Assembly: GCF_015265475.1 (NCBI RefSeq)
Contig: NZ_CP054493.1
Span: forward strand, 496,001 to 560,000
Direction: 5' to 3'
DNA: 64,000 nucleotides
Source: Candidatus Sulfurimonas marisnigri
GTDB taxonomy: Bacteria > Campylobacterota > Campylobacteria > Campylobacterales > Sulfurimonadaceae
Shown one piece after another: positions 10,862-28,743 of this stretch (within the stretch, counting starts at the first letter, position 1; every line of letters begins with the position of its first letter). The position numbers were made by a program, and so were the translations under genes. The notes beneath the pieces were generated by a model that was not told the origin of the DNA, searched no databases, and was given only the letters and a program-made list of their open reading frames with translations.

Positions 10862-10985
10862 GTGGGTACTTTTTTATTACTCTTGTAGCAAAAAATATTC
10901 CTAAATTAACAGTTATGATAATTTAAAAGAGAGAGTTGTATTTGTGAGTAGTGAAAAGTAGCAAAAAATATAAATATGGTTTTGC

Positions 10986-11005
10986 AATGCCCTGTTTAGG
11001 GCATT
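10986..11005 (-). terminator. rpsR terminator
   Basis: An 8-bp perfect stem (AATGCCCT / AGGGCATT) with a four-base loop lies 10 bases after the rpsR stop codon. It ends the rpsR transcript, although only a short A/T-rich tail follows on the minus strand. Confidence 0.7.
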
Positions 11006-11014
11006 ACATGAAAA

Positions 11015-11278
11015 TTATCTTAAATTTTCAAATGGTGCAGTTACTACTGTCTTTCTTGTTACAGTGTATGGAACTAATGCTGCTGCACGAGCTCTTTTAA
11101 TAACTGTTGAGATCATATCTTGGTGACGTTTACAGTTACCTGTTAAACGACGAGGCATGATTTTATATCTTTCTGAAAGTGAAAAACGTAGGGCTCCTAC
11201 ATCTTTATAATCCATAAAATCTACTTTTGCTTCACAATACTTACAAAATCTTTTTTTGTATTTTCTTCTTTCTGCCAT
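11015..11278 (-). CDS. rpsR: 30S ribosomal protein S18
   Basis: Encodes 87 residues, with the S18 hallmarks [17 protein letters not shown] and [18 protein letters not shown]. The CxxC plus Cx2H residues make this a zinc-ribbon (C+) form. S18 binds the small subunit platform as a heterodimer with S6. Normally rpsR follows rpsF and ssb in one operon; here both lie 17 kb away, beyond an integrated island. The ribosome site AAGGAAA is retained. Expression must now come from read-through or from a promoter inside the island end (11377-11405). Confidence 0.97.
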
Positions 11279-11305
11279 GTTATTTCCTTTTGTTATCTAT
11301 TTTCT

Positions 11306-11313
11306 AAAATGGT
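11306..11313. other. left border core repeat of the island
   Basis: TAAAATGG, identical to 28202-28209. Read on the minus strand it is CCATTTTA, followed by G, giving Pro-Phe-stop (TAG) in the ssb frame had the insertion not occurred. It probably represents the recombination core left at the rpsR-proximal junction. Confidence 0.6.
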
Positions 11314-11317
11314 TATG

Positions 11318-11447
11318 TTTACCAAAAAAGTGTAAACAAGCTTTTAACCCTCTAGATTATGTTGATATTGATGGAATTGTACCTAATTTTTTTAAAAATG
11401 TAAACAATATGTATAAATTTGTAAATATATGGCATTTTTATTTACAT
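11318..11447. repeat. left-end recombinase-site-like repeats
   Basis: Copies of a heptamer close to TGTAAAC or its complement occur at 11318 (GTTTACC), 11332 (TGTAAAC), 11400 (TGTAAAC), 11421 (TGTAAAT) and 11441 (ATTTACA). The longer block AAAGTGTAAACAAGCT at 11328-11343 is repeated with one change at the right end. They probably are binding sites for the island recombinases. Confidence 0.5.
11377..11405 (-). promoter_or_regulatory. outward promoter toward rpsR
   Basis: On the minus strand TTTACA (11405-11400) and TACAAT (11382-11377) are separated by 17 bases, each one mismatch from the sigma70 consensus. Transcription would start near 11370 and enter rpsR after a leader of about 90 bases. 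The -35 box overlaps one of the terminal TGTAAAC repeats, so recombinase binding could repress it. Confidence 0.55.
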
Positions 11448-11541
11448 TTTATATCGTAGTTAAGTTCCAAATAAATCTTGTGCAACTTTTAATTCAATAA
11501 ACTTTTCTGTTGTTGATGTACTTTCAATCACGCTATAATAA

Positions 11542-11874
11542 CTAAATGAATTGAACTCTCTGAACAATTAAAGAATTTTGCTTAACTGTCAATAGCGGAG
11601 TTAAATTCAGCAGTTTTTCGTAAGTCTTATCTAACTCTTTTATCTTTTCATTTGTATTAGGGTTGATAAAAGTAAAACCATTATCTCTATTTAAAACAAC
11701 TAAACCACCATTTGGACTATTTACACTAAAAACATTATCATTGAAAGTCATCTTTTTAGATTTCGTATACTTCTTATCCATATGTATTTTTGGTAACACG
11801 GCACTCTCTGGTATCACTCTAAAACAGCCAGTAAATAGTAAAATAGGTAGTAAAGCTATTATCAAACTATTCAT
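11542..11874 (-). CDS. small lipoprotein, unknown function
   Basis: Encodes about 110 residues starting at ATG 11874, chosen because a GAAGGAAA ribosome site lies directly upstream. The signal MNSLIIALLPILLFTGC ends in a clear lipobox (L-F-T-G-C), so the protein should be lipidated and membrane-anchored. The mature part is short and hydrophilic, with a predicted small beta-rich segment (NGGLVVLNRDNGFTFI). It is the first gene inside the left border of the island. No family is recognised. Confidence 0.7.
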   Translation of the reverse strand: MNSLIIALLPILLFTGCFRVIPESAVLPKIHMDKKYTKSKKMTFNDNVFSVNSPNGGLVVLNRDNGFTFINPNTNEKIKELDKTYEKLLNLTPLLTVKQNSLIVQRVQFI

Positions 11875-11892
11875 AACATTTCCTTCACACAT

Positions 11893-12195
11893 CTTGTAAT
11901 ATGATATCGATATATATATGTAATTATAAGCTTAATACTATTTGTAATAGTAATTCAAATTGTAGTTTTCAAATATATATAAAGTTAATTTTATTGTGTT
12001 TATTTTATAGATGAAAGCACTACTCTTTCTATTTCTAGTAAATTATGCATAATTATATTCCTTGTGTAATCTTTGGAACCAGTATATTTAATTGATAAAT
12101 ACTTTTTACTTGCTATATTTTGTTTATGATATAATACTCTTAAATAAAAGTATTAAATATAAAAATAACTATTTAAACACTTAATAAGAAGTATT
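11893..12195 (+). promoter_or_regulatory. hip promoter and candidate operator region
   Basis: The gap between the lipoprotein gene and hipB-like gene holds no further gene. A TATAAT box lies at 12130-12135 with TTACTT 18 bases upstream. Inverted half-sites AATACT (12133-12138) and AGTATT (12149-12154) overlap the -10 region. A third half-site AGTATT (12190-12195) abuts the start codon. This arrangement fits autorepression by the HTH protein encoded next. Confidence 0.5.
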
Positions 12196-12504
12196 ATGAT
12201 TGAATTAAAAACACCGTCAGAAACAATAGATATATTGGTTGAAAACATAGAAAGAGCACGAAAGACAAAAAGGCTGAAACAATCTGATCTGTGCACTATG
12301 GCTGATATTTCTGTAACGGCATATCAAAATTTCATTTATAAAAAAAATACTAATCTAATAGCTCTAATCAAAATTATGCATGTTTTAAAAATGTGGAATA
12401 ATTTAGAAGGGTTAATAGAATTCAAAGAACAACTAAGCATTCAAGATATTAGAGATATAAACAAGAAAAAAGAACTCCCAAAAAGGATCAGAAATGAAAA
12501 ATGA
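12196..12504 (+). CDS. HipB-like XRE antitoxin/regulator
   Basis: Encodes 102 residues with a helix-turn-helix at about 22-60 (ARKTKRLKQSDLCTMADIS then AYQNFIYKKNTNLIALIKIM). It is expected to bind the kinase encoded next and to repress their shared promoter. It overlaps the hipA-like gene by 11 bases, the usual coupling of such pairs. The C-terminal third is basic and probably contacts the toxin. Assignment rests on the fold and neighbour rather than close identity to E. coli HipB. Confidence 0.8.
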   Translation: MIELKTPSETIDILVENIERARKTKRLKQSDLCTMADISVTAYQNFIYKKNTNLIALIKIMHVLKMWNNLEGLIEFKEQLSIQDIRDINKKKELPKRIRNEK

Positions 12505-13804
12505 TTTTCTTGAGGTTGAAGCTTTTATATATGGAATGAAAATAGGAACACTTGTTATATATGAAGGTTTAGTGCACTTTGAATATGATGAGATGTTTCT
12601 TTTAAAAAACATTGATATATCACCACTAAAACTTAGCTTGTCAGATACCCAAGGGACTTATATAAATAAAGATAGTATAGATATTTATAAAGGATTAGCT
12701 GGAGTATTTTTTGATTCACTTCCAGATAAGCATGGGATGCCCTTCATTGATAGATATTTTGAGAAAAAAGGTTTTGCACTAAAAGATGTAACTATCCTGC
12801 ATAAGCTTACCTTTATTGCAGACAGGGGTTTGGGTGCAATAGAGTATAGACCTAAAGAACATGATAATAATTTTGTTGTCGTAAATGAAATACAAAATGT
12901 AAAAAAATTAAGAGAAGATATTAGAGATACGCTTGGAGATAAAAAAGAATATACTATTGATTCTTTGATGAATATTATAGATAGTGCATCTCCGGTTGGG
13001 GGTGCAAGACCTAAGATGTTAATATCATTTAATCCTATTACTAATGCTATTAAATACAACAATACAAGCTTAGAAGATGGTTACATAAGATCCATTATTA
13101 AGTTTGATGAATTATATCCGAACGAAGATGGTGTTGATGAAAGCATTGGGCTGACTAAACTTGAATATGTCTATATGACTATGGCTAAAAATTGTGGAAT
13201 AAATATAGCAACTATGCATTTGCACCAAAGAGATAATGAGACACATTTAATTTTAGAGCGTTTTGATAGAGATGCTAATGATAATAAAATACACAAATGT
13301 AGTGCATCAGGATTACTTCACAAAGATATAACGGTAGCTAAGGTAATGTCTTATGAGGAACTATTTTCTTTTACAAATAAAGTATGTGCTAAACAATCAA
13401 GTATTATAGAGTTGTATAAAAGAATGATTTTCAATGCCTTATCTTTAAATCTAGATGACCATGCGAAAAACTTTGAATTTATCATGGATAGAAAAGGTAA
13501 TTGGGATTTGTCCCCTGCATTTGATATTACATTCTCCAAGGGAATTACAAAAGAGCACATGACAACTATTAACGGAAAAGGAATTGATTTTACTATTGAA
13601 GATTTTTTGAGTATTGCTAAAAAGAACTTAATCAGCGAGAGCGACGCAATGAAAATAATCAATGTGTGTTCAAAGGAGCTGACATCATTTAAAAATATCG
13701 CTGAGTCTATAGGGATAGAATCTGATGAAATAGAAAACTGTGAAAAAGAGATTAATTTTCAAGCTAAACTAATACGAGAAAATCAATCTCTGATGCAATT
13801 ATAG
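12494..13804 (+). CDS. HipA-family serine/threonine kinase toxin
   Basis: Encodes 436 residues, the usual length for HipA. The N-terminal Couple_hipA region (about 10-110) includes GVFFDSLPDKHG. The loop SASPVGGARPKMLI corresponds to the regulatory Ser/P-loop segment. The catalytic part carries LNLDDHAKNFEFI (catalytic Asp and metal-binding Asn) and WDLSPAFDITFS. Known HipA kinases phosphorylate GltX or other aminoacyl-tRNA synthetases and induce dormancy; the target here is unknown. The catalytic residues appear intact. It is carried inside the island and may stabilise it. Confidence 0.9.
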   Translation: MKNDFLEVEAFIYGMKIGTLVIYEGLVHFEYDEMFLLKNIDISPLKLSLSDTQGTYINKDSIDIYKGLAGVFFDSLPDKHGMPFIDRYFEKKGFALKDVTILHKLTFIADRGLGAIEYRPKEHDNNFVVVNEIQNVKKLREDIRDTLGDKKEYTIDSLMNIIDSASPVGGARPKMLISFNPITNAIKYNNTSLEDGYIRSIIKFDELYPNEDGVDESIGLTKLEYVYMTMAKNCGINIATMHLHQRDNETHLILERFDRDANDNKIHKCSASGLLHKDITVAKVMSYEELFSFTNKVCAKQSSIIELYKRMIFNALSLNLDDHAKNFEFIMDRKGNWDLSPAFDITFSKGITKEHMTTINGKGIDFTIEDFLSIAKKNLISESDAMKIINVCSKELTSFKNIAESIGIESDEIENCEKEINFQAKLIRENQSLMQL

Positions 13805-14202
13805 AGACCGTAAAATAAACTGTGTAAACTGGAATGTTCCCTAAAAAGAGACCGTTACAAGTTTTGTGTCAGTAACCGGTAGTAATTAAAATTATATCAT
13901 AGTTCAACAATTTAGTTTGAAACTTAGAAAGTTGCAAAACCTGTAGTTTTTGGAGTAAGTTCAAAAATTCAACTCCATTTGGAACCGTCTTTCTGTTACT
14001 AAAATCTGCTCCAAATATAAGAGTTTAAGAAATGAATTTTAAAGGCAGCTCAATAATAATTTTTGGACCTTTTACATTTTTATCCATATATATTTTCTAC
14101 ACTAATTTTTCTATTATTTAATAAGTCATATACCTGTCCTTTATCTTTAAATCTTAAACTCCAATATCCAGATAAAGGACAATATTAGCATTGTTAACGA
14201 TG
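13805..14202. other. 398-bp gap with hairpins and possible IS scar
   Basis: No gene is seen. AGAGACCGT occurs twice (near 13803 and 13845), and the first copy is followed by AAACTGTGTAAACT, which resembles ends of IS256-type elements; this is a weak resemblance. A 12-bp perfect inverted repeat (TGTCCTTTATCT at 14135-14146, AGATAAAGGACA at 14170-14181) lies 22 bases past the end of the minus-strand PepSY gene and may end the efflux operon transcript. Confidence 0.45.
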
Positions 14203-14526
14203 TTACTTCCTAACCTTTTTGTCAATAACAGAGCCATCCATAGCATTAATTTCAAGATAGTAACTCTGAGTTTGCACTTTATAAAACATAATATTTCCAG
14301 TATGAGTTAACCTGATTTCTTGTACATCCTCTTTGGTAGACTCTTTTGCTATTCTAATTGCATCTTCTTCATCAACTTGATGTAATTTATGCATGTTTCT
14401 TTTTTTCTGTATTTTAACCATCGGTCTATTATTATAACCATGTATTGAGTTATGCTCACTTGGTGTAAGTGTTTGCCCTTGAGCAAACACGAACATAGGA
14501 GTTATTAGTAGTGTTAAATATTTCAT
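14203..14526 (-). CDS. small periplasmic PepSY-domain protein
   Basis: Encodes 107 residues with a signal peptide (MKYLTLLITPMFVFAQG). Residues 50-107 form one PepSY-like domain (DEEDAIRIAKEST, then MFYKVQTQSYYLEINAMDGSVIDKK). Its start overlaps the stop of the RND pump gene (ATGA), so it is the last gene of the efflux operon. His and Met residues in the N-terminal mature part might bind metal. PepSY proteins often inhibit or modulate partners in the cell envelope; a role in metal efflux is inferred from position only. Confidence 0.78.
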   Translation of the reverse strand: MKYLTLLITPMFVFAQGQTLTPSEHNSIHGYNNRPMVKIQKKRNMHKLHQVDEEDAIRIAKESTKEDVQEIRLTHTGNIMFYKVQTQSYYLEINAMDGSVIDKKVRK

Positions 14527-17500
14527 CTTAAATCCTTTTTATCTTTAGCAGATATAGTTGTATGCTCTTTATTATAAAAAAGCAGATATGTTGAAGGTAA
14601 AATAAGTAGAGTTAAAAGTGTTGAACTTATAATTCCACCAGTAATTACAACTGAGAGTGGATATTGAATTTCGCTTCCTACACCAGTAGCGTATAGCAAT
14701 GGTAAGATACCGAAGAGAGTAGTAAACGCCGTCATTAAAACTGGACGAAGTCTTAAAAGAGTCGCGTCTTTTAAAATAGTTTTTAAGTCTACATGCAGGA
14801 ATTTAGTCCTAAGTTCATCAATAAAACTCACTAAAACTATTCCATTTAATATAGCTATTGCGAATATGGCTAAGAAACCTATTATTGCTGATACAGAAAG
14901 GTAAATATCTGCATATAAAAGGGCAATTATTCCACCAATAAATCCAAAAGGTACATTAATTAAAATAAGCATAGCTTTTGAGAAAGAATTAAAAGCCGTG
15001 TATAAAAGTAGAATGATTAAAAATATTGTAATAGGGATTAAAATCATCAACTTTTTGGTTGCTTCTTTCATATTTTTAAAGTCCCCAGCCCAACCTATGT
15101 AATAACCATTTGGAATAACAACTTGCTCTTTAATAATTTGATTAGCTTCCTCCACGAAAGAAGCTACATCTCGACCTTCCACTTCCATAGAAAGTACCAT
15201 ATATCGACTAAGGTTTTCTCGTTTAATGAAAGAAGAACCATGACTTACAGAAATGTCACAAATCTGTTCTAAACTAACTAACACACCATTATTTGCACGT
15301 ATAGTTAAAGCTTTAACTGACTCTATATCTTCTTTCGCACCTTTAATCTTAGGTACTATTCCAAAACGACGAATACCTTCTATTTTTTCAGAAACTGCTT
15401 CCTCACCAATTCCATTACGAATAACACTCATTACTTCATCAACGTTAATTCCATAACGAGCAAGTGCTAAATAATTTGGCTCAATTTTAATTTGTGCTTG
15501 ACCAAGTTGAACTTCAACTTCCATCTCTTCTAAACCATCAACACCTTTGAGTTTAGCTTGAATAGATTTAGCGATAGAGTCTAACACTTTTTGGTCATCG
15601 CCATATATTTTAACTGCCAATTCTGCTTTTACACCTTCAAGCAATTCCTCAATTCTCATAGCGATAGGTTGAGTAGGAATAAACTGAACATATTCAAAAG
15701 TATGTTTTAAATCTTTATTCATCTTTTGGGTTAAATCTTCAAGGTTTTCTATATTATCTTTAAGTGTTAAAAGAACTTCCATATAGTTTGCTTGAGCCGT
15801 TTCTCCCTTTTCACTTCTTCCTATCATTGAAAGAACAGATGTTACTTCATTTGGGTAGTTTTTTAATATATGTTTTTCTATTTCACTTGCTGTTTGAGTT
15901 GATTGTGCTAAACCAGTTCCAGGTATAGATATAACCCTATACATAATAGACTCTTCATTTAGCTCAGGCATAAACTCACGACCTTGCTGACTTAAAATAT
16001 AAGCTAAACCAACAAAGATTACAGATACAGCTATTAAAAAAAATTTTGCATGTCCAAGAGCCAACATCAATAATGGAGTATAAGCTTTTTTTACACCTCT
16101 CATCAATGAATTCTCTTTGGACTTTGATGGCTTAAGTAGTAAATACGTTAATACTGGAACTAATGTAAGTGCTACAAATAAAGAACCTAGCATTACAAAA
16201 ACAATGTTTAATGCCATTGGACTATAAAGTTTCCCCGCTAGTCCATCAAGAGATAAGAGAGGTATAAAAACAGCCGCTATTATCAAAACTGCAAAGGTAA
16301 CGGGAGTTGCTACTTCCTTGGCTGAATCCGCTATAACTTGCAATCTAGGTGCATTTGGTTCATCATGGAGCTTTCTAAAACTATTTTCAACAACAACAAT
16401 GGTTCCATCAACAATCATTCCGACGGCAATTGCAAGACCACTAAGACTCATAAGATTTGCACTTACATTGTAATAATCCATCAATAAAAATGCAACTAAT
16501 AAAGATAGTGGTAAAGATATAATTACGATAAAAGCGGAACGTAATTCAAACAAAAATAAAAATAACACTATTGCAACCAAAACCATACCTGACAAAAGAG
16601 CAGATGTCATCGTATTAACAGCTTTATGTGTTATCTCTGTTCTATCATAAATAGTCTCAACAGTAACACCTTTTGGAAGTGCTGCGTTTACTGTATCAAT
16701 TTTTTCTTTGATTAGCTCTACAACTTGAGCAGCATTTGTGGCAGTTCTTTGAAGAACCATTCCCATTACTGCTTCACTTCCATCTATGCTTACCGCTCCA
16801 AACCTTGGAGCTGAACCCGATTCAACTGTAGCAACATCTTGTATAGTGACAGAATGTCCTGCTTCAAATTTAATAACAGTATTGCGAATATCATCAAGAG
16901 TATTATAAAGTCCTGCACCACGAATTAAATACTGTTCACGATTGAACTCTAAGTATTGACCACCCGCTGCTTGATTACTCCTTTGTAAAGCACTTACAAC
17001 ATCTCCGTACGTTACACCAATATCTTGTAGCTTTTTAGTATTAATGAGAACATTATATTGCTTCTCATGTCCACCCCAGCCAACAACTTCTTCAACACCA
17101 CTTACACTTTTAAACAGTGGAGTTACAATATAGTCCTGCATCTCTCTAATTTCACGAAGTGAGTATTTATCAGTAGTGTCTTTTATCTCATACCAAAATA
17201 CTTGACCAAGTCCAGTAGTATTTGGTCCTAATACTGGTTTTCCCCAACCCTCAGGAATGTCAACTCCACTTAGTCTTTCACTTACAAGTTGACGTAAAAA
17301 GTATATATCCATATCATCTTCAAAAAATACGGATACGTATGATAAACCAAAAAACGAGTTTGACATAATCATCTTGACGCCTGCCATACCTGATAAAGCA
17401 GACTCTATTGGATAGGTAAGTAGTTTTTCTATATCTTCAGCAGAATTTCCAGGACTCTCTGTATAAACTACAACTTGTTTAGGTGTAATGTCTGGAAAAG

Positions 17501-17612
17501 CGTCTATCGGTATTTCCTGATAAGCCTTAAAGCCAAAAGCAGTAATTGCTAAAAAAATCGTTATCACTAATAGTTTGTATTTTAGTGATATGTCAATAAG
17601 TATATTCAACAT
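14523..17612 (-). CDS. heavy-metal efflux RND pump, CzcA/CusA family
   Basis: Encodes 1029 residues with the RND plan: 12 helices, two large periplasmic loops, IPIDAFPDITPKQV near the N terminus. The TM4 motif is AIAVGMIVDGTIVVVENS. It keeps the DG and EN residues but lacks the first Asp of the CzcA DFGxxxDG pattern, which is a CusA-like trait, whereas RVISIPGTGLAQS in the second periplasmic part is CzcA-like. The substrate cation is therefore uncertain. It exports metal from cytoplasm or periplasm through the adaptor and TolC-like channel encoded upstream in the same operon. Confidence 0.9.
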   Translation of the reverse strand: MLNILIDISLKYKLLVITIFLAITAFGFKAYQEIPIDAFPDITPKQVVVYTESPGNSAEDIEKLLTYPIESALSGMAGVKMIMSNSFFGLSYVSVFFEDDMDIYFLRQLVSERLSGVDIPEGWGKPVLGPNTTGLGQVFWYEIKDTTDKYSLREIREMQDYIVTPLFKSVSGVEEVVGWGGHEKQYNVLINTKKLQDIGVTYGDVVSALQRSNQAAGGQYLEFNREQYLIRGAGLYNTLDDIRNTVIKFEAGHSVTIQDVATVESGSAPRFGAVSIDGSEAVMGMVLQRTATNAAQVVELIKEKIDTVNAALPKGVTVETIYDRTEITHKAVNTMTSALLSGMVLVAIVLFLFLFELRSAFIVIISLPLSLLVAFLLMDYYNVSANLMSLSGLAIAVGMIVDGTIVVVENSFRKLHDEPNAPRLQVIADSAKEVATPVTFAVLIIAAVFIPLLSLDGLAGKLYSPMALNIVFVMLGSLFVALTLVPVLTYLLLKPSKSKENSLMRGVKKAYTPLLMLALGHAKFFLIAVSVIFVGLAYILSQQGREFMPELNEESIMYRVISIPGTGLAQSTQTASEIEKHILKNYPNEVTSVLSMIGRSEKGETAQANYMEVLLTLKDNIENLEDLTQKMNKDLKHTFEYVQFIPTQPIAMRIEELLEGVKAELAVKIYGDDQKVLDSIAKSIQAKLKGVDGLEEMEVEVQLGQAQIKIEPNYLALARYGINVDEVMSVIRNGIGEEAVSEKIEGIRRFGIVPKIKGAKEDIESVKALTIRANNGVLVSLEQICDISVSHGSSFIKRENLSRYMVLSMEVEGRDVASFVEEANQIIKEQVVIPNGYYIGWAGDFKNMKEATKKLMILIPITIFLIILLLYTAFNSFSKAMLILINVPFGFIGGIIALLYADIYLSVSAIIGFLAIFAIAILNGIVLVSFIDELRTKFLHVDLKTILKDATLLRLRPVLMTAFTTLFGILPLLYATGVGSEIQYPLSVVITGGIISSTLLTLLILPSTYLLFYNKEHTTISAKDKKDLR

Positions 17613-17622
17613 AATTAATTAC

Positions 17623-18765
17623 CTAATGCCCATGTTCGCCAAGTGATGATTTTAACATCATCGACTTCACATAATAGCTTTTATCACTCACATATTCTTC
17701 ATCAAGTTCTATTCCTTGAACCCCTGCATATTCATCATCTTGTGTGATAATTTCAACAACACGAGCTTCGTATGGTAATGAAGGTTCATCTTCATCGTCA
17801 TCATGTTTTTCTTCTTCATGTTCTTCATGGTCATCATGTTTTTCTTCTCCATGTTCTTCATGGTCATCATGTTTTTCTTTTTCTGTTGGCATAAAAACAA
17901 CCCATTCATTGTTGAAAAATGACAGCGCTGATTTCTTAACAGCTACATGTTTTTCTGTTGGTTTAAAATAAAGAGTTGAAGATACAAATGTATTTACAAA
18001 CAAATCATCTGCTTTTTCATCAACACTTGATAGAATAACTATCCTCTGTGTTTTAACATCCAACTCTGGTAGTATTTGAGTTACATGAGTAACGATTTTT
18101 CTACCATTATAATCTACACTGAGTTTTTGACCATTCTTTATAACACTTGCATACTTTAAAGGTAAGTAAGATTGAACATAAAAAGCTTGGTCTTTAATAA
18201 TAGTAATTAGAGCCTCATCTTCCCTAATTACAGTATGTAAAGGTTGTAATAAACTAGATACTTTCCCAGAACTATGAGCATAAAGAATGAAGTTTCCCGT
18301 TGCTTTCTTGAGATTTTTCGTTTGGATACCTAAGGTCTGCAATTGTGAACGAAGTGCGGCTATTTTTGAATCCATAGAATTTTTTTCTATTCCTAAATTA
18401 TTTAATGCCTGAGTAGAAAGCATACCTTTATCGTATAGCTTTTTACTAGCGTCATAATTTTCATTTAAAGATATTATTTGTTTCTTTAAAGAGATAAAGT
18501 CAGCTGTCATTTTAGAGACTAATATTGACTCAATTAAGGCAATTTTCTGCCCACTTTTTACACTTTGACCAGCTTCAACAAAGTATTTTTCCAAATGTCC
18601 ACTGACTAGTGATGTAACTGATTGCTTAGCGTTTGATAACTGAATGATTTGAGAATTCAATTCAATTGATTTTCCAAATGAACGAAGTTCAGCATGTTCC
18701 GTGGGTATATCTACACTAAATAAAGATGTTACATATAGTAGTACTAAAAGAGATATTCTATTCAT
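17623..18765 (-). CDS. RND periplasmic adaptor with His/Asp/Glu-rich insert
   Basis: Encodes about 380 residues when started at ATG 18765, preferred because AAGGAAC lies upstream and the signal peptide MNRISLLVLLYVTSLFS begins there. Barrel-sandwich and hairpin regions follow (VSGHLEKYFVEAGQSVKSGQ, a coiled coil, then SGKVSSLLQPL). Near residue 300 is an acidic, histidine-rich tandem repeat typical of periplasmic metal binding. It overlaps the TolC-like gene by 8 bases and precedes the pump by 10. It should link pump and channel and may deliver or sense metal. Confidence 0.88.
   Translation of the reverse strand: MNRISLLVLLYVTSLFSVDIPTEHAELRSFGKSIELNSQIIQLSNAKQSVTSLVSGHLEKYFVEAGQSVKSGQKIALIESILVSKMTADFISLKKQIISLNENYDASKKLYDKGMLSTQALNNLGIEKNSMDSKIAALRSQLQTLGIQTKNLKKATGNFILYAHSSGKVSSLLQPLHTVIREDEALITIIKDQAFYVQSYLPLKYASVIKNGQKLSVDYNGRKIVTHVTQILPELDVKTQRIVILSSVDEKADDLFVNTFVSSTLYFKPTEKHVAVKKSALSFFNNEWVVFMPTEKEKHDDHEEHGEEKHDDHEEHEEEKHDDDEDEPSLPYEARVVEIITQDDEYAGVQGIELDEEYVSDKSYYVKSMMLKSSLGEHGH
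17798..17880 (-). repeat. 33-bp tandem repeat in the adaptor gene
   Basis: Two complete 33-bp units (17798-17830 and 17831-17863) and a partial third encode the 11-residue repeat KHDDHEEHGEE / KHDDHEEHEEE / KHDDDEDE. The first two units differ at one base, which suggests recent expansion by slippage. The encoded segment is a probable metal-chelating loop. Confidence 0.85.
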
Positions 18766-19927
18766 TGTAAGTTCCTTGATAAAAATTTGTATATATAGCA
18801 TTTTGATTTAATGCTGTATAGATTTGTATAAGAGCTCTTTTTGTTTGAATAACTTTATGTTTAATGTCTTGGAGTTGTAGTAGATTTATATTTGAAATCT
18901 TATATCCATCTTCATACATTTTTAAAAGTTTTAGTTGAGTTTTCAATATTTTTTCATTATTTACATTTAACTCAACTAGTGCTTTTCTTTCTTTTTTAAG
19001 TCTAATAAAGTCCATATTTAAACGAGCGTTCTCATTCTTCATTAAAAGCTCTATACGTGAAGCTTGAAGCATTGCTATCGTCTTTTCTTGAGACCTGTTG
19101 TTAAAAATAGCTAATGGAAGATTCACTCCAACTCTAAGTACATCTTGCTCTGGTTCATTTTCTATCTCTGCAAATAAGTCTATCGATTCAACAGTGTTAG
19201 AATTTAGTTGTGCTTCTGATAGTGCTTGATATTGTTGACTTCGCAAGACCTTAATTGTAGGATTTTCAATATTCTCTATATTAGAGTTTATTTTAAATTC
19301 ATAATCATTTTCAAGCTCTATTTCTTTGCTTATTCCTGCAATCTTTAAGAGTGAGTAATAGCTATCCATTGCAGCTAAAGATAAAGTACTTTTTGAGTTT
19401 TTACTCATTTCATAATCTACTTGAGCTTGAAGTTTTATACCCTGAGAAATTGTACCGCTCTCAAGTCGAGCAATAGAGATTTCATATATTTTTTTGGCAA
19501 TACTCAAGCTTTCATCAGATAAATTTAATAGCTTGTTTGCCTCAGAGTAAGATGTATATGCAAGAGATATATCACGAATAAATATAGCTCTCTTTTGAGC
19601 ATAGTTAATGTCCGCATTTTTATTATTTGCGTCTGTTAGATTTTTTTTATCTTCACTCACACCCCATAAGCGAATAGGTTGGGAATAACCAATACGGTAT
19701 CCATTATCATTTGAGCCAATATCTGGTTCAAAAGAAGAATACTCTAATTCTAATGTAGGGTTTTCATACCTTGTAAGAATATTGCCCTGTTCTTTAGTTT
19801 GTTTAACAGCTAATGCTGAAGACTCCATGTAAGGACTATTTTTTATAGCCTTTTGTAAAAATTCATCAAAACTTTCAGCACTCAAAAATGTGCATAATAG
19901 TAGAGACATAATTATATTTTTCAACAT
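18758..19927 (-). CDS. TolC-family outer-membrane efflux protein
   Basis: Encodes 389 residues with a signal peptide (MLKNIIMSLLLCTFLSA). Two OEP repeats of long helices are visible, including NPTLELEYSSFEPD, the region around YTSYSEANKLLNLS and VGVNLPLAIFNNRSQEKTIA. It is slightly shorter than E. coli TolC, as for CusC/CzcC-type channels. ATG 19927 follows AAGGATAGTT. It is the first large gene of the efflux operon (channel, adaptor, pump, PepSY). Confidence 0.88.
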   Translation of the reverse strand: MLKNIIMSLLLCTFLSAESFDEFLQKAIKNSPYMESSALAVKQTKEQGNILTRYENPTLELEYSSFEPDIGSNDNGYRIGYSQPIRLWGVSEDKKNLTDANNKNADINYAQKRAIFIRDISLAYTSYSEANKLLNLSDESLSIAKKIYEISIARLESGTISQGIKLQAQVDYEMSKNSKSTLSLAAMDSYYSLLKIAGISKEIELENDYEFKINSNIENIENPTIKVLRSQQYQALSEAQLNSNTVESIDLFAEIENEPEQDVLRVGVNLPLAIFNNRSQEKTIAMLQASRIELLMKNENARLNMDFIRLKKERKALVELNVNNEKILKTQLKLLKMYEDGYKISNINLLQLQDIKHKVIQTKRALIQIYTALNQNAIYTNFYQGTYNE

Positions 19928-19981
19928 AACTATCCTTTGTAAAAATAAAAATTTGGTATAAGTATAGGTTAAGGTTTGAGG

Positions 19982-20287
19982 TTATGCGATAGGTGGTTTA
20001 ATAGTTTTTGAATAAGTTTCAAAGAGATATGAAGTGTTTTGTGGAATACTGTGAAGCTTATCTACATTAAGATATGCAATAGTGTCATAAGATGGTACTA
20101 AATAAGGATGATGGTATTCATAATGAACATCACAAATATCTCCACAATCTGTGGTTTTGCTAAATTCACTTACATATTCAACAACATCACATGGTTCTTT
20201 ATCAAACATTGCAAATTCTATTTCATGAAAAACCGAAAAAGAAACTACGAATAATAAAAGAATGGTACTAATCTTTTTTAAATGCAT
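19982..20287 (-). CDS. small secreted Cys/His protein upstream of efflux operon
   Basis: Encodes 101 residues with a signal-like N terminus (KKISTILLLFVVSFSVF). The mature portion contains clustered potential metal ligands: CDVVEY, DCGDICDVHYEYHHPY. It sits 54 bases upstream of the TolC-like gene on the same strand, in the position where small metal-binding accessory proteins such as CzcI occur in other systems. A periplasmic metal-binding or sensing role is inferred; no family is recognised. Confidence 0.65.
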   Translation of the reverse strand: MHLKKISTILLLFVVSFSVFHEIEFAMFDKEPCDVVEYVSEFSKTTDCGDICDVHYEYHHPYLVPSYDTIAYLNVDKLHSIPQNTSYLFETYSKTIKPPIA

Positions 20288-20849
20288 AAGAGTATTCTAT
20301 CTTAAATTTTATTCATAATATACTTAAAGCCATAGTATAACTCATCAATTGAAAAAAAATCATAGTTCCACAACTAGTACTTTTTTAAAACTCATTGTAA
20401 ATAAACCTTTCTAAATACCTATAGTACCGAAGTTTACTTGAGTTTTTAGCCTGAAATATTTTGCATTAGATCTCATTTGTTAAGGTATTGATTATAGGAA
20501 TGATTGTAAAAAGTGAATTTATTTTTTCATTATATACTGATTAAAATATTATAAAATGAGGATTTGGGGTAACATGAATGTTGATATATTTAAGTAGTTT
20601 TTTTAGCTACTCCAGTATTTGGAGCCATTATTTTAATTTAAATTTTATTGTTCCAATTTTGCGCTAGAAATAACCATATTTTAGTAAAGTTATATAAAAG
20701 TGCATGTCTAAAAAGCCCTTATATTTGTAACAAGAAGCGCTCATATTAGTTTTCCGTGTTCCACAAAGTGTTTAAAAAGTAAAAACTGCAAAGTTCCACA
20801 AATATTTAGGGATTATGGAACAAAAAAAATGAGCTTAGTATGTCTATTT
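20288..20849. other. 562-bp gap holding a dispersed repeat
   Basis: No gene is supported on either strand. The right part is copy 2 of the dispersed repeat. The left part is AT-rich; it contains the weak hairpin TCCA-GTATT-TGGA near 20606 and several poly-T tracts. Promoters of the efflux operon presumably lie close to 20288-20340 but no convincing -35/-10 pair was fixed. Confidence 0.5.
20713..20820 (-). repeat. dispersed intergenic repeat, copy 2
   Basis: Inverted relative to copy 1 at 1590-1694. The core at 20735-20798 matches with about three changes, and homology extends on both sides at lower identity (for example CCACAAATATTTAGGGATT against the complement of copy 1). It lies inside the island, 29 bases from the end of the 131-residue gene. 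Confidence 0.75.
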
Positions 20850-21245: not shown

Positions 21246-21252
21246 AAATAAC

Positions 21253-21450: not shown

Positions 21451-21507
21451 ACTTCATTCCTCTTTTTGTAGCTTAGCTACATATTTTTAATTTCTAATAA
21501 TTCTACT

Positions 21508-21747: not shown

Positions 21748-21765
21748 CTTTGACCCATCGTTTGA

Positions 21766-21828
21766 TTAGCTATAGTGCTGACCTAGCTTCATGTTGCCAT
21801 CAGCACTACCTCTTTGTGTTAAATTCAT
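21766..21828 (-). pseudogene. truncated paralogue of the 131-aa gene
   Basis: A 20-codon frame, MNLTQRGSADGNMKLGQHYS, matches the N terminus of the intact protein (MNLIKRGKTDGNLKLGQHSS) and then stops. The rest of the gene is missing. It sits just downstream of the broken two-helix gene, mirroring the order of the intact pair. Confidence 0.7.
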
Positions 21829-21831
21829 AAA

Positions 21832-22662: not shown

Positions 22663-23097
22663 TTATTGTTTTGTTTTACCTCTATCAACAGGCGTTAAAG
22701 GTTTGTCTAACATCTCTTTCGTAACACCTTTGCTATGAGCATTGTAAGCCCATCTTGCAAATTGTGCTAATAATGCTTCATTTTCAAAATTTAATCTATC
22801 ATTTTCAGCTTCTAAACGCTTTACTTTCTGTATCAATGCGGCTACTTCAGCACTCATGTTTGGAAGTTCTTTTATAGTAGTTGATACTCTATCTTTTGTC
22901 AAGTTATATGCATCTTTAATTCGTTGATGCTTGCCAAGTGTTTGACGTGTATATTTATTTTTAGTTCTAAACTCTATCTCGTCAATTAATTTATCCCAGG
23001 TTAACTTTCCTGACCACCCATCAAGAATTTTTACAATCTTTTCAATAAGTTCATCTGTAAGGTTTTCAGATCTAGTATGTTTTGAATTTTGGCTCAT
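22663..23097 (-). CDS. TnpC-like accessory protein of recombinase module
   Basis: Encodes 144 residues. An N-terminal helical domain (LTDELIEKIVKILDGWSGKL, TRQTLGKHQRIKDAYN) looks DNA-binding, followed by a coiled coil (ALIQKVKRLEAENDRLNFENEALL). This architecture and its place, 11 bases after the third recombinase gene, correspond to TnpC of Tn554-type elements, which influences orientation and frequency of transposition. The name is by analogy; sequence identity was not measured. Confidence 0.65.
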   Translation of the reverse strand: MSQNSKHTRSENLTDELIEKIVKILDGWSGKLTWDKLIDEIEFRTKNKYTRQTLGKHQRIKDAYNLTKDRVSTTIKELPNMSAEVAALIQKVKRLEAENDRLNFENEALLAQFARWAYNAHSKGVTKEMLDKPLTPVDRGKTKQ

Positions 23098-23108: not shown

Positions 23109-25232
23109 TTAACTCAATAATTTTTTTATTTCATCAAACTCAATTGATTCTATTTTTTCTTCTTTTCTTCTTTTTGCTTGTTCAATTGAAGATGTTACAG
23201 GTATGTTTGATAGCTGAATAAACGAGCCTTCAGGAACATTGGGGTCATCTAGAATTTTACAAATCTGATTTAGCCTATCTAATACTATTGTATGATGTTC
23301 AACCCATTTATTGCTTCCATAGTATTTCTTTTCGAGAGCATTTTTAGCTTTTTCTAAAAGCTTTTCAGTTTCATCTCTAAGGTATCTGATTTTATTATTT
23401 CTTTTTGTATCACCTTTTATGCATACCTGTTCTGTACAGCTCATACAGTCTCTATGAAGTTGGCATGGTGTCATAGTATAATCATGTATACATACACCAT
23501 ATTCAGTGAGATGAGCTGTCCTTATTTTGAGTATTGCATATTCATCTCTAGAAATAACAACCTTCTTTTTTAGATCATCAATATTAGCTAGTGGACCAAT
23601 CATAGAATGTTCATCACCAACTGCTTCTCTTAGGCTTAACAGCATTTCATCAGCACTTAGATGATCATATGCGTTATTTTGTTGAACATCAAGCCTACCT
23701 GACCATTTTGCTATATCTAGTTGACTAGCTCCACCTTTTTGAGCTAGTGTGTTTAAGTAGTGTCTAAATTGATGAGACGTGGCTTTGATTGGACTGCCAT
23801 CTTTTTCTTTATAGCCAAACATTTCAAAAAGTGAAGATTTTGAATCTCTTGCTCCTAAAGCATCTGAAATAAATTGATGTGTAAAAGGTTCTACTGTAGG
23901 GACAATTACATCTCTTTGATGGTTATACTCATACTTTCTTTGTATGATTAGCGTTTGAGAATATTTTAATCCGATTTCGGTATTTACATAAGGAAAATTA
24001 TTTGGTAAAAGGCTTAAAACTGCTTTTTCCACATCTTTATATGTAGCATGTTTTTTACCTTTAATCATAGTTGTTAATACTGAATGGTCTCTTAGCCAAC
24101 AGTGAATAGAAGATCTTTTTTTATCAAGGTTTTTATTTGTGTTATTAATACCATATAAAATAAAAGATATCATTTTGATATTTAATAAATGAGTATCTCT
24201 AAGGTACTCAAGCTCATCTGGAAGAAAAAGTTTATCTGGATTTTTTTCGTACCACAATGCTACTTTTCTAGCATCTTTTGTTAACTCCTTTAGCCTTCGA
24301 ACTGTTTTTTTAGCAGTATCTACCATTAAGGATGTTATCCATTTTGGTGTTGCTTTAGCACCTTTTGCTGGAAACCATCGTAATCCATATGACTCTTTAT
24401 ACATTTTACTTTCATCATCTTTGGAAGGATCATAGTTTTTATTTTTTTGTTTTTGTAGTACTTCAATATCAAAAGGCGCTAAAAAAACTTCATTTATTCT
24501 ATTTGGTGAACAAAAAAGTAAAGCAATAGTTGAGCTTGCCATCAATTGATATGGAGTTTGGGCTTTATTAAAAATTTCTGGTATGGCATCTAAAGCTACT
24601 TGAGAAGGCATTTTTTTATTTCTATCCTCATCAGCTTTTTTACCAATTCTAGAAGTATCATTAGGTCTTTTGATTGAATTTCGCCAATCAATTGAAGTTT
24701 TTACTAAATTTTTTTTATTAAGTAATTTTGCAATATCCTCTAGTTTTTGTCCTATTCTATAAGCAGTTGATTGGTTATAGTTAGCTTTTATAATTTCAGC
24801 TGCTTTATTTAAAACGTCATTATTTATATTTACAGGATTTATATTATTACCCATCTCAAGTAGTGCTTTTTCTAGCACCCTTAGTGCTGTTAGTTTATTG
24901 GATATAGATTTTGTAGGGTTATTTGAGAATGTGATTGCAAAGTATGCTTTAGCATAATCTAAATATGGACTTTGTATAAACTCTATTTGTCTTCCACCAG
25001 TTTCTTTTTCATCATCAGTCATCTTCTGTTGAGATTTTTTAGCATAGTCAAATGTTGAGAAAATAGCACGTGTTTTAGCTTTCTTGGCTTTTTGTTCAAT
25101 ATTTAGTTCCCATATATTGTCACTAAATTTTAAATTTGAATTTAAAAAAATTGATTCGTATTTACTTGACTCAATATAAGTATTTAGATTTTGCTCTGCA
25201 GTTATAGTTTTTGGTGTTCTCAAATTATTCAT
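23109..25232 (-). CDS. tyrosine recombinase C (third of trio)
   Basis: Encodes 707 residues, the largest of the three. The C-terminal catalytic domain shows Arg I in CSPNRINEVFLAP, box II ATSHQFRHYLNTLA (H-x-x-R-H) and the nucleophile in NNAYDHLSADEM. Downstream a Cys-rich knuckle (VCIHDYTMTPCQLHRDC then SCTEQVC) may bind zinc. Length and arrangement recall TnpB of Tn554. It overlaps the preceding recombinase gene by 4 bases (ATGA), so translation is coupled. It presumably acts with the other two recombinases on the island ends. Confidence 0.88.
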   Translation of the reverse strand: MNNLRTPKTITAEQNLNTYIESSKYESIFLNSNLKFSDNIWELNIEQKAKKAKTRAIFSTFDYAKKSQQKMTDDEKETGGRQIEFIQSPYLDYAKAYFAITFSNNPTKSISNKLTALRVLEKALLEMGNNINPVNINNDVLNKAAEIIKANYNQSTAYRIGQKLEDIAKLLNKKNLVKTSIDWRNSIKRPNDTSRIGKKADEDRNKKMPSQVALDAIPEIFNKAQTPYQLMASSTIALLFCSPNRINEVFLAPFDIEVLQKQKNKNYDPSKDDESKMYKESYGLRWFPAKGAKATPKWITSLMVDTAKKTVRRLKELTKDARKVALWYEKNPDKLFLPDELEYLRDTHLLNIKMISFILYGINNTNKNLDKKRSSIHCWLRDHSVLTTMIKGKKHATYKDVEKAVLSLLPNNFPYVNTEIGLKYSQTLIIQRKYEYNHQRDVIVPTVEPFTHQFISDALGARDSKSSLFEMFGYKEKDGSPIKATSHQFRHYLNTLAQKGGASQLDIAKWSGRLDVQQNNAYDHLSADEMLLSLREAVGDEHSMIGPLANIDDLKKKVVISRDEYAILKIRTAHLTEYGVCIHDYTMTPCQLHRDCMSCTEQVCIKGDTKRNNKIRYLRDETEKLLEKAKNALEKKYYGSNKWVEHHTIVLDRLNQICKILDDPNVPEGSFIQLSNIPVTSSIEQAKRRKEEKIESIEFDEIKKLLS

Positions 25233-26767
25233 ACTATCAACTCTTGTGCATTTTCTTCTTTATATCTTCTACACTCTATTATTACCTGAGCAACCGCTAA
25301 TATGGTTTTATCGTTGATGCTAGCTATTCTGTAGTCAGTTGTTTTTAAAAGTACTTCACGCTCTTTTAACAGGTGTTCAAAAAGCTTTTCATGTGGACCA
25401 TCAACCCAGGCTTGAAAACTATTACATGTATAGCATGCCAATGGTGCAGAAAGGCTACAAAACGCATAAGTACCACATTTTCCCATAGCCTTACATGAAG
25501 GGTCTACTTTAGGATCGATAATATCACTTGTTGGATCATCAAAGCGTGTAGCTGTCGATTTGTCTTTTACTAGTTTTCCTGCAAAGGCTTGAGCAATTGG
25601 GGCCATGTAGGTAGCAATTGCTTTGTCTATTCTTTCTATTATTTCAGGTAAAGATTGAACATAAACACCAACGTTTTGAGTGTCTGTATGATCAAGAATT
25701 TCTGCAATTATAAGTTCACCATGGCCTTCAACAGCAGCTCTAGTACCAATTGTACGTCTAAAGCGTGTGGATGTAATATGAAGTTTTTCTTCTGTTCTTT
25801 CAGAAATTAAATTAAATTTAGAGATAACTAACTGAATTCTATCTGTTATATCTCCAGATGTAGAATGATAAGCTAGTTCTCCCGTACGTTTATTAGAAGA
25901 AGCAGGAAATAAAGGTGCTTGATTCGGATCTTCTAATATATTTAAAAACTGATTTTTTGCTTCATCGGCATATTCAAGCATAGGCTGTCCAATTTCTGAT
26001 GGTAATATGCGTTGTTTAAATTCTGAGCGTGCTTTTTTTCTATTTTTTACCCTAGGTATGGATATTATATATTCATTAGAGCTATCTTGTTTTTGAAAAG
26101 ATTTTATATCAATTACTTTTAGTAATGCAAACTGTATCGGTCTTGATCCATAAATAATCATTAGCCATACAAGTAAAAAATCTGAATCAGATATTTCATT
26201 TTTGGCATATTTATTATTTAAAGTATCTTGAATTAACTCTAGCTCTAAGTCAGTAAAAGGACCATCATATGGATCCATGGTTAATACGGCTTGTCCTTTT
26301 TGATTCCCAGGTAAGTTTACTTCTTTAAGATATTCATATGCTTCGTTAGACAATCCAGTATAACCCATTTCATACCATTTTTTTAAAAAACCAGATAATG
26401 AACTTAAATACCACATGTGCTTTTTATCTAAGGAGCTTTTATAGCTCTTCAAATCTTTAATAGAAACTTCTTTTATGATTTCATTTTTTAATTTATATAT
26501 GTAATTAAGTAGACGTAACAATAAGTCGTACATATTGATTGAGTGACTCATAGACTTATTTTCTAGGTACCATATAAATGTACGCTTTATACCGTATATG
26601 TCTGTATCAATAAAGCCTAGTTTTGTAAAATCAAATCTTGTGTTTTTAGATATGTCTGAAAATATCCATACATCTAAATTTGGATTAAATTTAAAACCAT
26701 CTTTAGTTATGCATTCATTTGGTAATAGTTCTTGACTTTGAAAATTATCTTCTTGTATTAAAATCAT
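25229..26767 (-). CDS. tyrosine recombinase B (second of trio)
   Basis: Encodes 512 residues. The catalytic domain has Arg I in YGSRPIQFALLK, a box II segment STRFRRTIGTRAAVEG in which the usual first His is Thr and the second is Arg, EILDHTD, and Tyr in NVGVYVQSLPE. A Cys cluster follows (SCKAMGKCGTYAFCS then LACYTC). The altered box II may mean reduced catalysis or a structural role, as known for some paired recombinases. It begins 6 bases after recombinase A and overlaps C by 4. Confidence 0.88.
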   Translation of the reverse strand: MILIQEDNFQSQELLPNECITKDGFKFNPNLDVWIFSDISKNTRFDFTKLGFIDTDIYGIKRTFIWYLENKSMSHSINMYDLLLRLLNYIYKLKNEIIKEVSIKDLKSYKSSLDKKHMWYLSSLSGFLKKWYEMGYTGLSNEAYEYLKEVNLPGNQKGQAVLTMDPYDGPFTDLELELIQDTLNNKYAKNEISDSDFLLVWLMIIYGSRPIQFALLKVIDIKSFQKQDSSNEYIISIPRVKNRKKARSEFKQRILPSEIGQPMLEYADEAKNQFLNILEDPNQAPLFPASSNKRTGELAYHSTSGDITDRIQLVISKFNLISERTEEKLHITSTRFRRTIGTRAAVEGHGELIIAEILDHTDTQNVGVYVQSLPEIIERIDKAIATYMAPIAQAFAGKLVKDKSTATRFDDPTSDIIDPKVDPSCKAMGKCGTYAFCSLSAPLACYTCNSFQAWVDGPHEKLFEHLLKEREVLLKTTDYRIASINDKTILAVAQVIIECRRYKEENAQELIV

Positions 26768-26773: not shown

Positions 26774-28057
26774 CTACTCCTTTTTAGCTTTTATGGAATT
26801 GTCACTCATCTCTAATATCACCTTATTGGCTTCTTCTTCAATATGCCTTTTTGTATATGTATGAGCACTATTAGATGTTGGGGACCAACCCATAAGATAT
26901 GATCTAATTTGTTTTTCCCGTTCTTCAGGTATGTTTTTAGCATCCATTATTTTTGAAAACTTATCATTCCATGAATGTCTTAGAATATGAGGTGAAAAGT
27001 TTTGTGGTAAGTTTGGATTTGCTTTTCTTAGTTCAGAGAATACTTTGTTTAGAGCAGATAAACTCATAGGTAAACCACTTTTGTCTGCTACAAATAAGTA
27101 TGGATGATATACTGATTCAGGTAGACTTTCTCTGATCCCAAATAAATATGAGTAAGTCAGGTCTAGTAAGTTTTTAGGTATAGCTAATTTTCTTGCTTGC
27201 GTTTTAACAACTGGCTGGTTTGTTCTTGAATCATCTGAATCATCAGGTCGTCTTAAAATTGAAACAGTTTCTTCTTGAAAATTAAGATCTGACATTTTAA
27301 TATTTAAAAGTTCACCTCTCCTTAATCCAAATTCGTATAACCAAAAAATTATTAGTTCATTTCTTGTCTTAGCAAAAGAACTTTTCCATGGATTCTTTTT
27401 GGAATCTTTATCAATAATTGAAAATAAAAGTTTTAGTTCTTCTTCTGAGAGACTTCTCTTCCCTGAAAGTGGATCTGAACTTTGAACTTTTGGTATTCTA
27501 GCTTCTAAAGTAGATTTAACTGTTTTGATAGCATCGTTAAGTGAAAGAGTTTTTAAACCAAAATCCTCAACGTTAGATAGAAAAGTATTTCCAAGCCAGA
27601 CTAGATAGTCTTTTATAGATCTTATACGATGTCCTGTGCTTTTTGGATCAACGGTATTTATGTTTTTGGTATTACTAGTGTTTCTAAAATTCTCTAAAGA
27701 GTTTAGTTTAATATTTGTTTGCGTATTTGTTGATGAATATTCTTTTGTTAAATCTTCAATATGTAATTTACATATATCACAAAGTATTTCAACCTCAGAC
27801 AAACTTAACAACTTAGCATCTTCTAAACGTTTTTCTAGATTAATCTCTTCTGTGTAGTTGTTTTTCAAAAAAAACATTAATAATTTTAAGTGTTGTAAAG
27901 TTTGTTCTATTGTCTTTACTGCTAAACCTCTTGATCTTAGTTGAGTAATAGAATAAAGTGTAATCCAATAATCTGGAATACCAGTGTTAGATTCTATCAA
28001 CATAGGTAGTCTTTCACCATCTGACATTACAATAGTTTTAATCTTATAAGATGTCAT
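26774..28057 (-). CDS. tyrosine recombinase A (first of trio)
   Basis: Encodes about 427 residues from ATG 28057, preferred over 28069 because GGAA lies 8 bases upstream. The N-terminal SAM-like core-binding domain spans about 80-190. The catalytic domain shows Arg I in YEFGLRRGELLNI, box II SPHILRHSWN and the nucleophile in HTYTKRHIEEE. All catalytic residues look present. The gene follows ssb on the same strand and its promoter region overlaps the right-end repeats, so expression may be coupled to end occupancy or to read-through from ssb. Confidence 0.9.
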   Translation of the reverse strand: MTSYKIKTIVMSDGERLPMLIESNTGIPDYWITLYSITQLRSRGLAVKTIEQTLQHLKLLMFFLKNNYTEEINLEKRLEDAKLLSLSEVEILCDICKLHIEDLTKEYSSTNTQTNIKLNSLENFRNTSNTKNINTVDPKSTGHRIRSIKDYLVWLGNTFLSNVEDFGLKTLSLNDAIKTVKSTLEARIPKVQSSDPLSGKRSLSEEELKLLFSIIDKDSKKNPWKSSFAKTRNELIIFWLYEFGLRRGELLNIKMSDLNFQEETVSILRRPDDSDDSRTNQPVVKTQARKLAIPKNLLDLTYSYLFGIRESLPESVYHPYLFVADKSGLPMSLSALNKVFSELRKANPNLPQNFSPHILRHSWNDKFSKIMDAKNIPEEREKQIRSYLMGWSPTSNSAHTYTKRHIEEEANKVILEMSDNSIKAKKE

Positions 28058-28076
28058 ATTTATTTCCATTTATTTT

Positions 28077-28182
28077 GGTAAACATTATAACATAAAGTGT
28101 GAAAATTAGAAAAGAAAGTGTAAATAAGCTACATTTACCAGTGTATGGCAAATATAAGACTTATTTAATAGAGTAGTTTACA
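28077..28182. repeat. right-end recombinase-site-like repeats
   Basis: Heptamers close to TGTAAAC or its complement occur at 28077 (GGTAAAC), 28119 (TGTAAAT), 28133 (ATTTACC) and 28176 (GTTTACA). AAAGTGTAAATAAGCT (28115-28130) matches the left-end block with one change. A minus-strand TATAAT (28089-28084) overlaps the first heptamer and could be the -10 box of the recombinase operon. Confidence 0.5.
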
Positions 28183-28200: not shown

Positions 28201-28743
28201 TTAAAATGGAATTTCATCTTCATCTATGTCAATCACTGGAACTGAATCGCTACTTGGCATTTGCTTAGAGTAAGCATTGGCATTTTGCTGAGCCGGCTGT
28301 TGATAGCTTTGTGGCTGCTGTTGCTGCTGACTCGGTTGCTGATAACTTTGTTGTTGTTGCTGCTGCTGCTGAGGTTGACCTTGAGGTGCTTGGTAATTAC
28401 TACCGCCACCTTGGTTATCGCCTTTAGAATCTAACATCTGCATAGTTTCAACAACTATAGTATGCTTAGAGCGTTTCTGTCCATTTTGATCTACCCATTG
28501 ATCAAAGTTAAGTCTACCTTCTACCAGGATTTTACTCCCTTTTCTAAGGTATTGGTTAGCAATCTCCGCGCTTCTTGCAAAGAATGTAATATCTACAAAA
28601 CAGACTTCCTCTTTTTTCTCACCATTGCTAGTGAACTTTCGGCTTGTTGCAAGAGAAGTAGTTGCTATTCCCATTCCGCCTTGAGAGTATCTAAGTTCGA
28701 TATCGCGAGTTAAGTTTCCAACCATAATAACTTTGTTATACAT
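28201..28743 (-). CDS. ssb: single-stranded DNA-binding protein
   Basis: Encodes 180 residues. The OB fold occupies 1-110 (YNKVIMVGNLTRDIELRYSQ, CFVDITFFARSAEIANQYL, GSKILVEGRLNFDQW). A glutamine-rich disordered linker with QQPQ and QSYQQP repeats follows. The conserved acidic tip DIDEDEIPF recruits repair and replication partners. The final Pro-Phe-stop codons form the right border of the island. The upstream rpsF lies 32 bases away in the same operon. Confidence 0.97.
   Translation of the reverse strand: MYNKVIMVGNLTRDIELRYSQGGMGIATTSLATSRKFTSNGEKKEEVCFVDITFFARSAEIANQYLRKGSKILVEGRLNFDQWVDQNGQKRSKHTIVVETMQMLDSKGDNQGGGSNYQAPQGQPQQQQQQQQSYQQPSQQQQQPQSYQQPAQQNANAYSKQMPSSDSVPVIDIDEDEIPF
28202..28209. 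other. right border core repeat of the island
   Basis: TAAAATGG, identical to 11306-11313. It encodes the last Pro-Phe and the first two bases of the stop codon of ssb on the minus strand. The insertion keeps the SSB tip intact with TAA as stop. Confidence 0.6.

Follow-up and report, generated by a model that had tools for sequence, protein, structure and literature searches.

A candidate outward promoter at the cargo-side end of GInt-type islands likely serves the severed ribosomal protein gene rpsR

Introduction

Mobile islands usually choose sites at which they do little harm. GInts, genomic islands that carry ginABCD at one end with the cargo behind, favour the end of ssb as target, leave the product of the interrupted gene unchanged and are bounded by short imperfect repeats (Bardaji et al. 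2017, PMC5385486). RT-PCR data in that paper describe an outward promoter that lies within the gin operon and feeds a host gene, the neighbour on the 5′ side of the island, into which it reads; the opposite, cargo-side end is called poorly conserved there, with no common feature. SpyCIM5 of Streptococcus pyogenes splits an operon whose downstream genes regain expression from a promoter in the decayed island; SpyCIM5, however, is phage-like and sits in mutL, its cryptic promoter lies in an integrase pseudogene of one strain, and the genes served are DNA repair genes (PMC3430984). The integrative and conjugative elements ICEKp1, ICEclc and ICEEc1 possess an outward promoter at the 3′ end, while a host promoter drives int in the integrated state; they use one integrase and insert beside tRNA genes, and the abstract and one section of PMC13023037 describe no host gene served by the 3′-end promoter. 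Strand-biased circularizing elements (SEs) have few target sites and encode, besides several tyrosine recombinases, a fourth protein of small size (PMC10214605); SE and GInt proteins are sorted into separate clusters there, and the likeness to the present locus is one of description.

Here, we describe an island that shares with GInts the gene layout, the insertion at the ssb end with the product unchanged, the short imperfect repeats and an outward promoter, in this case a candidate one. Unlike the published GInt promoter, it lies at the cargo-side end, from which it would read into rpsR; unlike the one-strain promoter of SpyCIM5, its box is kept in several divergent islands. Already in print are a GInt promoter that feeds a neighbour at the opposite end (PMC5385486) and the rescue of a split operon by an island promoter (SpyCIM5, PMC3430984). 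For the rpsR case, a literature search with limited coverage of subscription journals found no published report, and rpsR is absent from the main text of PMC5385486.

Results

A GInt-type island separates rpsR from rpsF and ssb

The window, by which we mean the whole 64,000-nucleotide stretch of Candidatus Sulfurimonas marisnigri DNA that was analysed (genome G000), contains a 16,897-bp island (11313-28209) in the last codons of ssb. Each junction (11305-11312 and 28202-28209) bears CCATTTTA, the terminal bases of that gene. When the flanks were joined at this word, the empty site of a relative, G421, was recreated with 203 of 212 bases identical and no gap; the 16,897-bp element is thus an insertion into the ssb end. 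The features of the interrupted operon are as follows.

11015..11278, minus strand: rpsR, ribosomal protein S18, 87 aa, severed from its operon (Pfam Ribosomal_S18, E 1.1e-19)
11279..11304, minus strand: native rpsR leader with the ribosome-binding site AAAGGAAATAAC, matching the ssb-rpsR gap of uninterrupted relatives
11305..11312, minus strand: left copy of the attachment core CCATTTTA, in common with 28202-28209
28202..28209, minus strand: right copy of the core, at the ssb end, from the flank-joining comparison
28201..28743, minus strand: ssb (Pfam SSB), whose end and TAA stop codon come from the island; the stop in uninterrupted relatives is TAG or TAA
28776..29213, minus strand: rpsF, first gene of the severed operon (Pfam Ribosomal_S6)

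While the gap between ssb and rpsR measures 11-32 bases in the 19 uninterrupted relatives for which it was listed, rpsF and ssb in the window now lie 17 kb from rpsR. The severing of rpsR from rpsF-ssb, which an earlier note on this DNA had read from the sequence, is borne out by the recreated empty site and by a genome search in which rpsR was single-copy; a second rpsR that would make a rescue needless was not found. Where the empty site of G421 has TAG as ssb stop codon, the window has TAA; among the other filled sites, G013 likewise has TAA, G448 has TGA, and G423 and G353 have TAG. Because it varies among filled sites, the island brings in the last ssb bases.

Directly after ssb come four adjacent genes of 431, 512, 707 and 144 aa. 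Their order and orientation after ssb are the same in G136, a genome of another family in which the block also directly follows ssb, and in the more distant four-gene block of the Pseudomonas aeruginosa plasmid pTROUS1 (identities of 36% for A, 44.6% for B, 40.4% for C and 54% for D). The description of GInts includes integrase catalytic residues in GinA and GinB, some of which GinC lacks; in the window, GinA matches Phage_integrase and GinB matches NF041502; GinC matches neither the Pfam nor the NCBIfam library. Short imperfect direct repeats, CCATTTTAGAA on the left and CCATTTTAAAA on the right, agree at 10 of 11 bases, the GInt criterion being 10-17 bases. The island is thus of the GInt type, with ginABCD at one end, and its identity to the published reference GInts is one of layout. 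Genes and sites of its interior are listed below.

28084..28092, minus strand: TGTTATAAT, extended -10-like site before ginA, read from the sequence
26774..28069, minus strand: ginA-like tyrosine recombinase gene, 431 aa (Pfam Phage_integrase, E 8.2e-13; 77% to G013, 44% to G136)
25229..26767, minus strand: ginB-like recombinase gene, 512 aa (NCBIfam NF041502, 553.9 bits against a cut-off of 350; 53% to G136)
23109..25232, minus strand: ginC-like gene, 707 aa (48% to G136, 40.4% to pTROUS1)
22663..23097, minus strand: ginD-like gene, 144 aa (pTROUS1 block, fourth gene, 54% over 138 aa; G136, 52%)
14523..19927, minus strand: cargo, an RND efflux set (CusA/CzcA-type pump, adaptor and outer-membrane protein)
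12196..13804, plus strand: cargo, a 102-aa ORF and a HipA-like gene (HipA_C, E 5.8e-41 for 12494-13804)
11542..11892, minus strand: 116-aa ORF directed toward rpsR, a possible source of read-through

A TGnTATAAT sequence also precedes ginA at the right ends of G013, G423 and G448, and TTATTATAAT takes its place in G136, as read by eye. A small helix-turn-helix gene (HTH_3, 22234-22560) adjoins ginD on the opposite strand and is a candidate island regulator. The 102-aa ORF (12196-12504) had no Pfam match, and the HipA-like gene behind it gives 12196-13804 a layout like that of a toxin-antitoxin pair. The ORF at 11542-11892 had no Pfam, NCBIfam or PADLOC match.

Interrupted operons coincide with ginA relatives

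Relatives of ginA (E 1e-20 or better) were found in 5 of the 135 genomes of the genus, each directly after ssb. Among 397 genomes drawn from the class, three, counting the genome of the window itself, had a ginA match with an E value of 1e-30 or lower, and a GinC profile had two matches, in G000 and G136. The contigs of named genomes yielded one locus with GinA; viral contigs held no relative with GinA or the GinB pair. Matches to rpsR were present in 126 of the 135 genomes of the genus and matches to ssb in 128. When the two tables were compared by eye, 121 of the 126 genomes with an rpsR match had that gene immediately behind ssb on one contig; this count includes G484, where a 34-residue piece of rpsR lies behind ssb at a contig end and the full copy is on another contig. 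The two genes are apart in four genomes (G000, G013, G353 and G423), all of which carry a ginA relative behind ssb. In G448, a filled and an empty site lie on two contigs that are 91.6% identical over 442 bases; we rejected its reading as a single genome, and the assembly probably contains two related strains. A DNA search of the genus with the left end matched 4 of 135 genomes, namely its own and three in which 23 bases matched the host leader. As a negative result, this search lacks sensitivity, since it missed G353, which a three-genome search found.

An outward -10 block is conserved at the rpsR-side end

The left end of the island carries the following features.

11316..11338, no strand: inverted repeat TGTTTAC / GTAAACA, 9 bases apart, putative recombinase site
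11376..11381, minus strand: TACAAT, candidate -10 box of an outward promoter, found by the scan and lying in the block that ranks second in conservation across four left ends
11399..11404, minus strand: TTTACA, in the position of a -35 element though more likely an arm word for a recombinase; spacer of 17, 17, 18 and 19 bases in four islands
11420..11446, no strand: further arm-like words TGTAAA (11420) and TTTACA (11441)

On the minus strand and pointing at rpsR, TTTACA (11404-11399) is followed by exactly 17 bases and then by TACAAT (11381-11376). The earlier note had described this motif correctly in sequence, spacing and direction, and its placement at 11377-11405 was shifted by one base. 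A consensus scan of 10900-14000 returned 16 promoter-like sites, against 19.8 (sd 4.0) in shuffled sequence; a plain -35/-10 match was therefore rejected as stand-alone evidence, and conservation was used instead. The motif alone is no evidence; the evidence is that its -10 part is kept at the same place in three other islands.

Four rpsR-side ends were readable: those of the window, G353, G423 and G136, which belong to divergent islands, that of G136 in another family. The left end of G013 was left out because rpsR is cut by the contig end, and the DNA search yielded no more than weak hits (best E 0.004). An outward TAYAAT is present in all four ends, its first base at -103 (G000), -100 (G353), -106 (G423) and -115 (G136) from the rpsR ATG, and is preceded by TGC in three of them (G353, G423 and G136). 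In a four-way alignment, G[GC]TAYAATT is the second most conserved 9-base block, scoring 0.87 against a column mean of 0.46; a core-proximal TTTACA block lies above it at 0.93, and the core and ribosome-binding site reach 0.76. The ends of G000 and G353 are 70% alike over ~153 bases and hence not fully independent. Within 160 bases before rpsR, TGnTAYAAT occurs in 3/4 island ends versus 0/29 uninterrupted loci, and TAYAAT in 4/4 versus 5/29; the uninterrupted set was given as 30 loci, from which L011 (the G013 island, with no rpsR) was dropped. Under a first-order Markov model, the chance per end is 0.007-0.019 for TGnTAYAAT and 0.20-0.46 for TAYAAT.

The kept part reads as an extended -10 box rather than as a -35/-10 pair. 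Compared with the extended -10 sequence TGxTATAAT, the window has GGTACAAT without TG, G353 has TGCTACAAT, and G423 and G136 have TGCTATAAT, so that the window copy is the weakest of the four. In Campylobacter jejuni, the main sigma-70 signal is an extended -10, present in ~89% of promoter regions, with no clear -35 (PMC3656092), and the kept -10 part fits that signal. The upstream TTTACA is kept as well; its distance to the -10 box drifts from 17 and 17 to 18 and 19 bases, and TTTACA is therefore read as a recombinase arm site more than as a -35 element.

Words of the types TTTACA/TGTAAA and GTTTAC/GTAAAC recur at both island ends. The former start at 11331, 11399, 11420 and 11441 on the left and at 28119 and 28177 on the right, and number 113 in the whole window (1.77 per kb). 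We read the TTTACA/TGTAAA words as putative recombinase sites. The proposed overlap of the -35 element with a putative recombinase-binding heptamer is thus real at the level of sequence.

As a comparison, eight plasmid loci (L074-L081) were fetched, and six were scored or searched. Left out were L075 (ssb end found only), L080 (cut at the record start), L077 (no left junction) and L078 (doubtful junction); L076 and L081 were identical in scores and positions and were counted once, and the junction of L074, which the pattern had missed, was read by eye. On an ad hoc scale, the best outward scores were 10, 12, 13 and 11 for the four ends described here and, for plasmid GInt ends with no rpsR behind, 8 in Escherichia coli and 9 in Citrobacter, hosts with other promoter rules. 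The left end of P. aeruginosa pTROUS1 (L074), likewise from a host with other promoter rules, had no promoter-like outward site. These three distinct plasmid ends, with scores lower than the four ends here, are a weak control. At five annotated plasmid loci (L074, L076, L077, L078 and L079), a GInt lies directly behind the plasmid single-strand-binding gene. The cargo behind the plasmid gin genes includes defence-type genes: a type ISP restriction enzyme (pTROUS1), an AbiGi-type antitoxin (pEC0430-2), an anti-phage dGTPase (Citrobacter plasmid) and Avs4 (L081).

A decayed island retains the box

In G353 (loci L060 and L061), ginA starts 21 bases after ssb and the right end is gone. GinA ends before its conserved C-terminal part and has lost its active site; ginD follows directly after ginA, and ginB and ginC had no match in the stretches searched. 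On another contig, rpsR and the left end stand behind a co-directional CofH/MqnC-type gene, with a run of N just upstream. The attachment core has drifted to CTATCTGA, and TTTACA-N17-TACAAT is intact with its TGC. Since a dead island needs no promoter for a circle, the supply of S18 is the simplest reason for the box in G353; the alternative is that too little time has passed for decay. The remnant suggests that an island end may outlive its island as an ordinary host promoter.

Discussion

Taken together, these observations lead to a model in which the cargo-side end promoter probably replaces the lost operon promoter of the essential gene rpsR. A GInt-type island entered the last ssb codons and cut the rpsF-ssb-rpsR operon; one junction restores the ssb end and stop codon, and the other leaves rpsR its own ribosome-binding site. 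From TACAAT (11381-11376), an mRNA would start near 11370 with a leader of ~90 bases into rpsR, passing the attachment core and reaching the native ribosome-binding site. We infer that the promoter is active, gives most of the S18 mRNA and is kept by selection for S18, and that the TTTACA upstream serves mainly as a recombinase arm site, the occupancy of which would compete with RNA polymerase. Some rpsR RNA may in addition come from read-through out of 11542-11892.

The predicted rpsR leader (11265-11369) folds around the attachment core at -15.2 kcal/mol (z -2.4), a value matched by 4 of 200 shuffles. Masking of the ribosome-binding site by this structure was rejected, as AAAGGAAAU stays unpaired in the predicted fold. 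Attenuation of transcription by this fold, as known from the int leaders of some ICEs, is conceivable. With S6:S18-type autoregulation as the motive, the rpsF leader was included in an Rfam scan of 10900-29600, which also covered the island and gave only four matches, all below their family cut-offs.

The DNA itself shows the island with its ends, the cut operon, a single rpsR and a -10 block kept in four divergent islands. The earlier proposal that the element supplies rpsR with expression agrees with the severed operon, the single rpsR and a box in 4/4 ends, that of G353 with its broken operon among them; the transcription it implies is a prediction, and a rescue of rpsR by the end promoter is likely.

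A different primary role for the outward promoter is possible but on balance unlikely, namely that it drives ginABCD in the excised circle and feeds rpsR in the integrated state only as a by-product. Because rpsF, ssb, ginABCD, the end promoter and rpsR are co-directional, joined ends would place the promoter before ginA, and for ICEKp1, ICEclc and ICEEc1, 3′-end promoters have been measured to drive int in the circle (PMC13023037). Yet ginA already has TATAAT with TG before it in 4/5 right ends, the end promoter is kept in G353 though the gin operon is broken, and the three distinct plasmid GInt ends possess no comparable outward site, their hosts following other promoter rules. The circle role and the rpsR role can coexist. 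As a speculation that we regard as doubtful, integration would be a reversible promoter swap: in the integrated state, the rpsF-ssb promoter could read into ginABCD and the end promoter into rpsR, and upon excision each promoter would regain its own genes. Given that the arm words overlap the -35 region, a recombinase on the ends would then lower the supply of S18 and tie ribosome assembly to the state of the island. Were the swap true, erosion of the island left end would be costly or lethal.

It is improbable that rpsR is fed by read-through from the cargo, with the promoter-like site idle. The ORF at 11542-11892 does read toward rpsR, a scan found no terminator-like site between them, and the nearest upstream coding sequence is directed toward rpsR in G423 and G353 too. 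In G136, however, the nearest cargo ORF reads away from rpsR, and read-through from a neighbour therefore cannot be the rule; moreover, a lasting rank among the most conserved blocks would be surprising for an idle site. That the TAYAAT block is part of a recombination site rather than a promoter is most improbable: it does sit among conserved TTTACA words that resemble recombinase sites, but the pTROUS1 left end has the TGTAAAC/GTTTACA pair and lacks TAYAAT there, the best match to a -10 box in the E. coli and Citrobacter ends is 5/6, G353 keeps the block despite its broken gin operon, and the TGC and T-rich run before it are promoter features.

The islands described here settle within an essential operon, a cost that they seem to offset by keeping a promoter at their far end. 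This would explain how ssb can be a GInt target even where rpsR follows, and would assign a function to the far end of GInts, which is poorly understood. An outward -10 box at the rpsR-side end is offered as a candidate sequence rule for other phyla with rpsF-ssb-rpsR operons.
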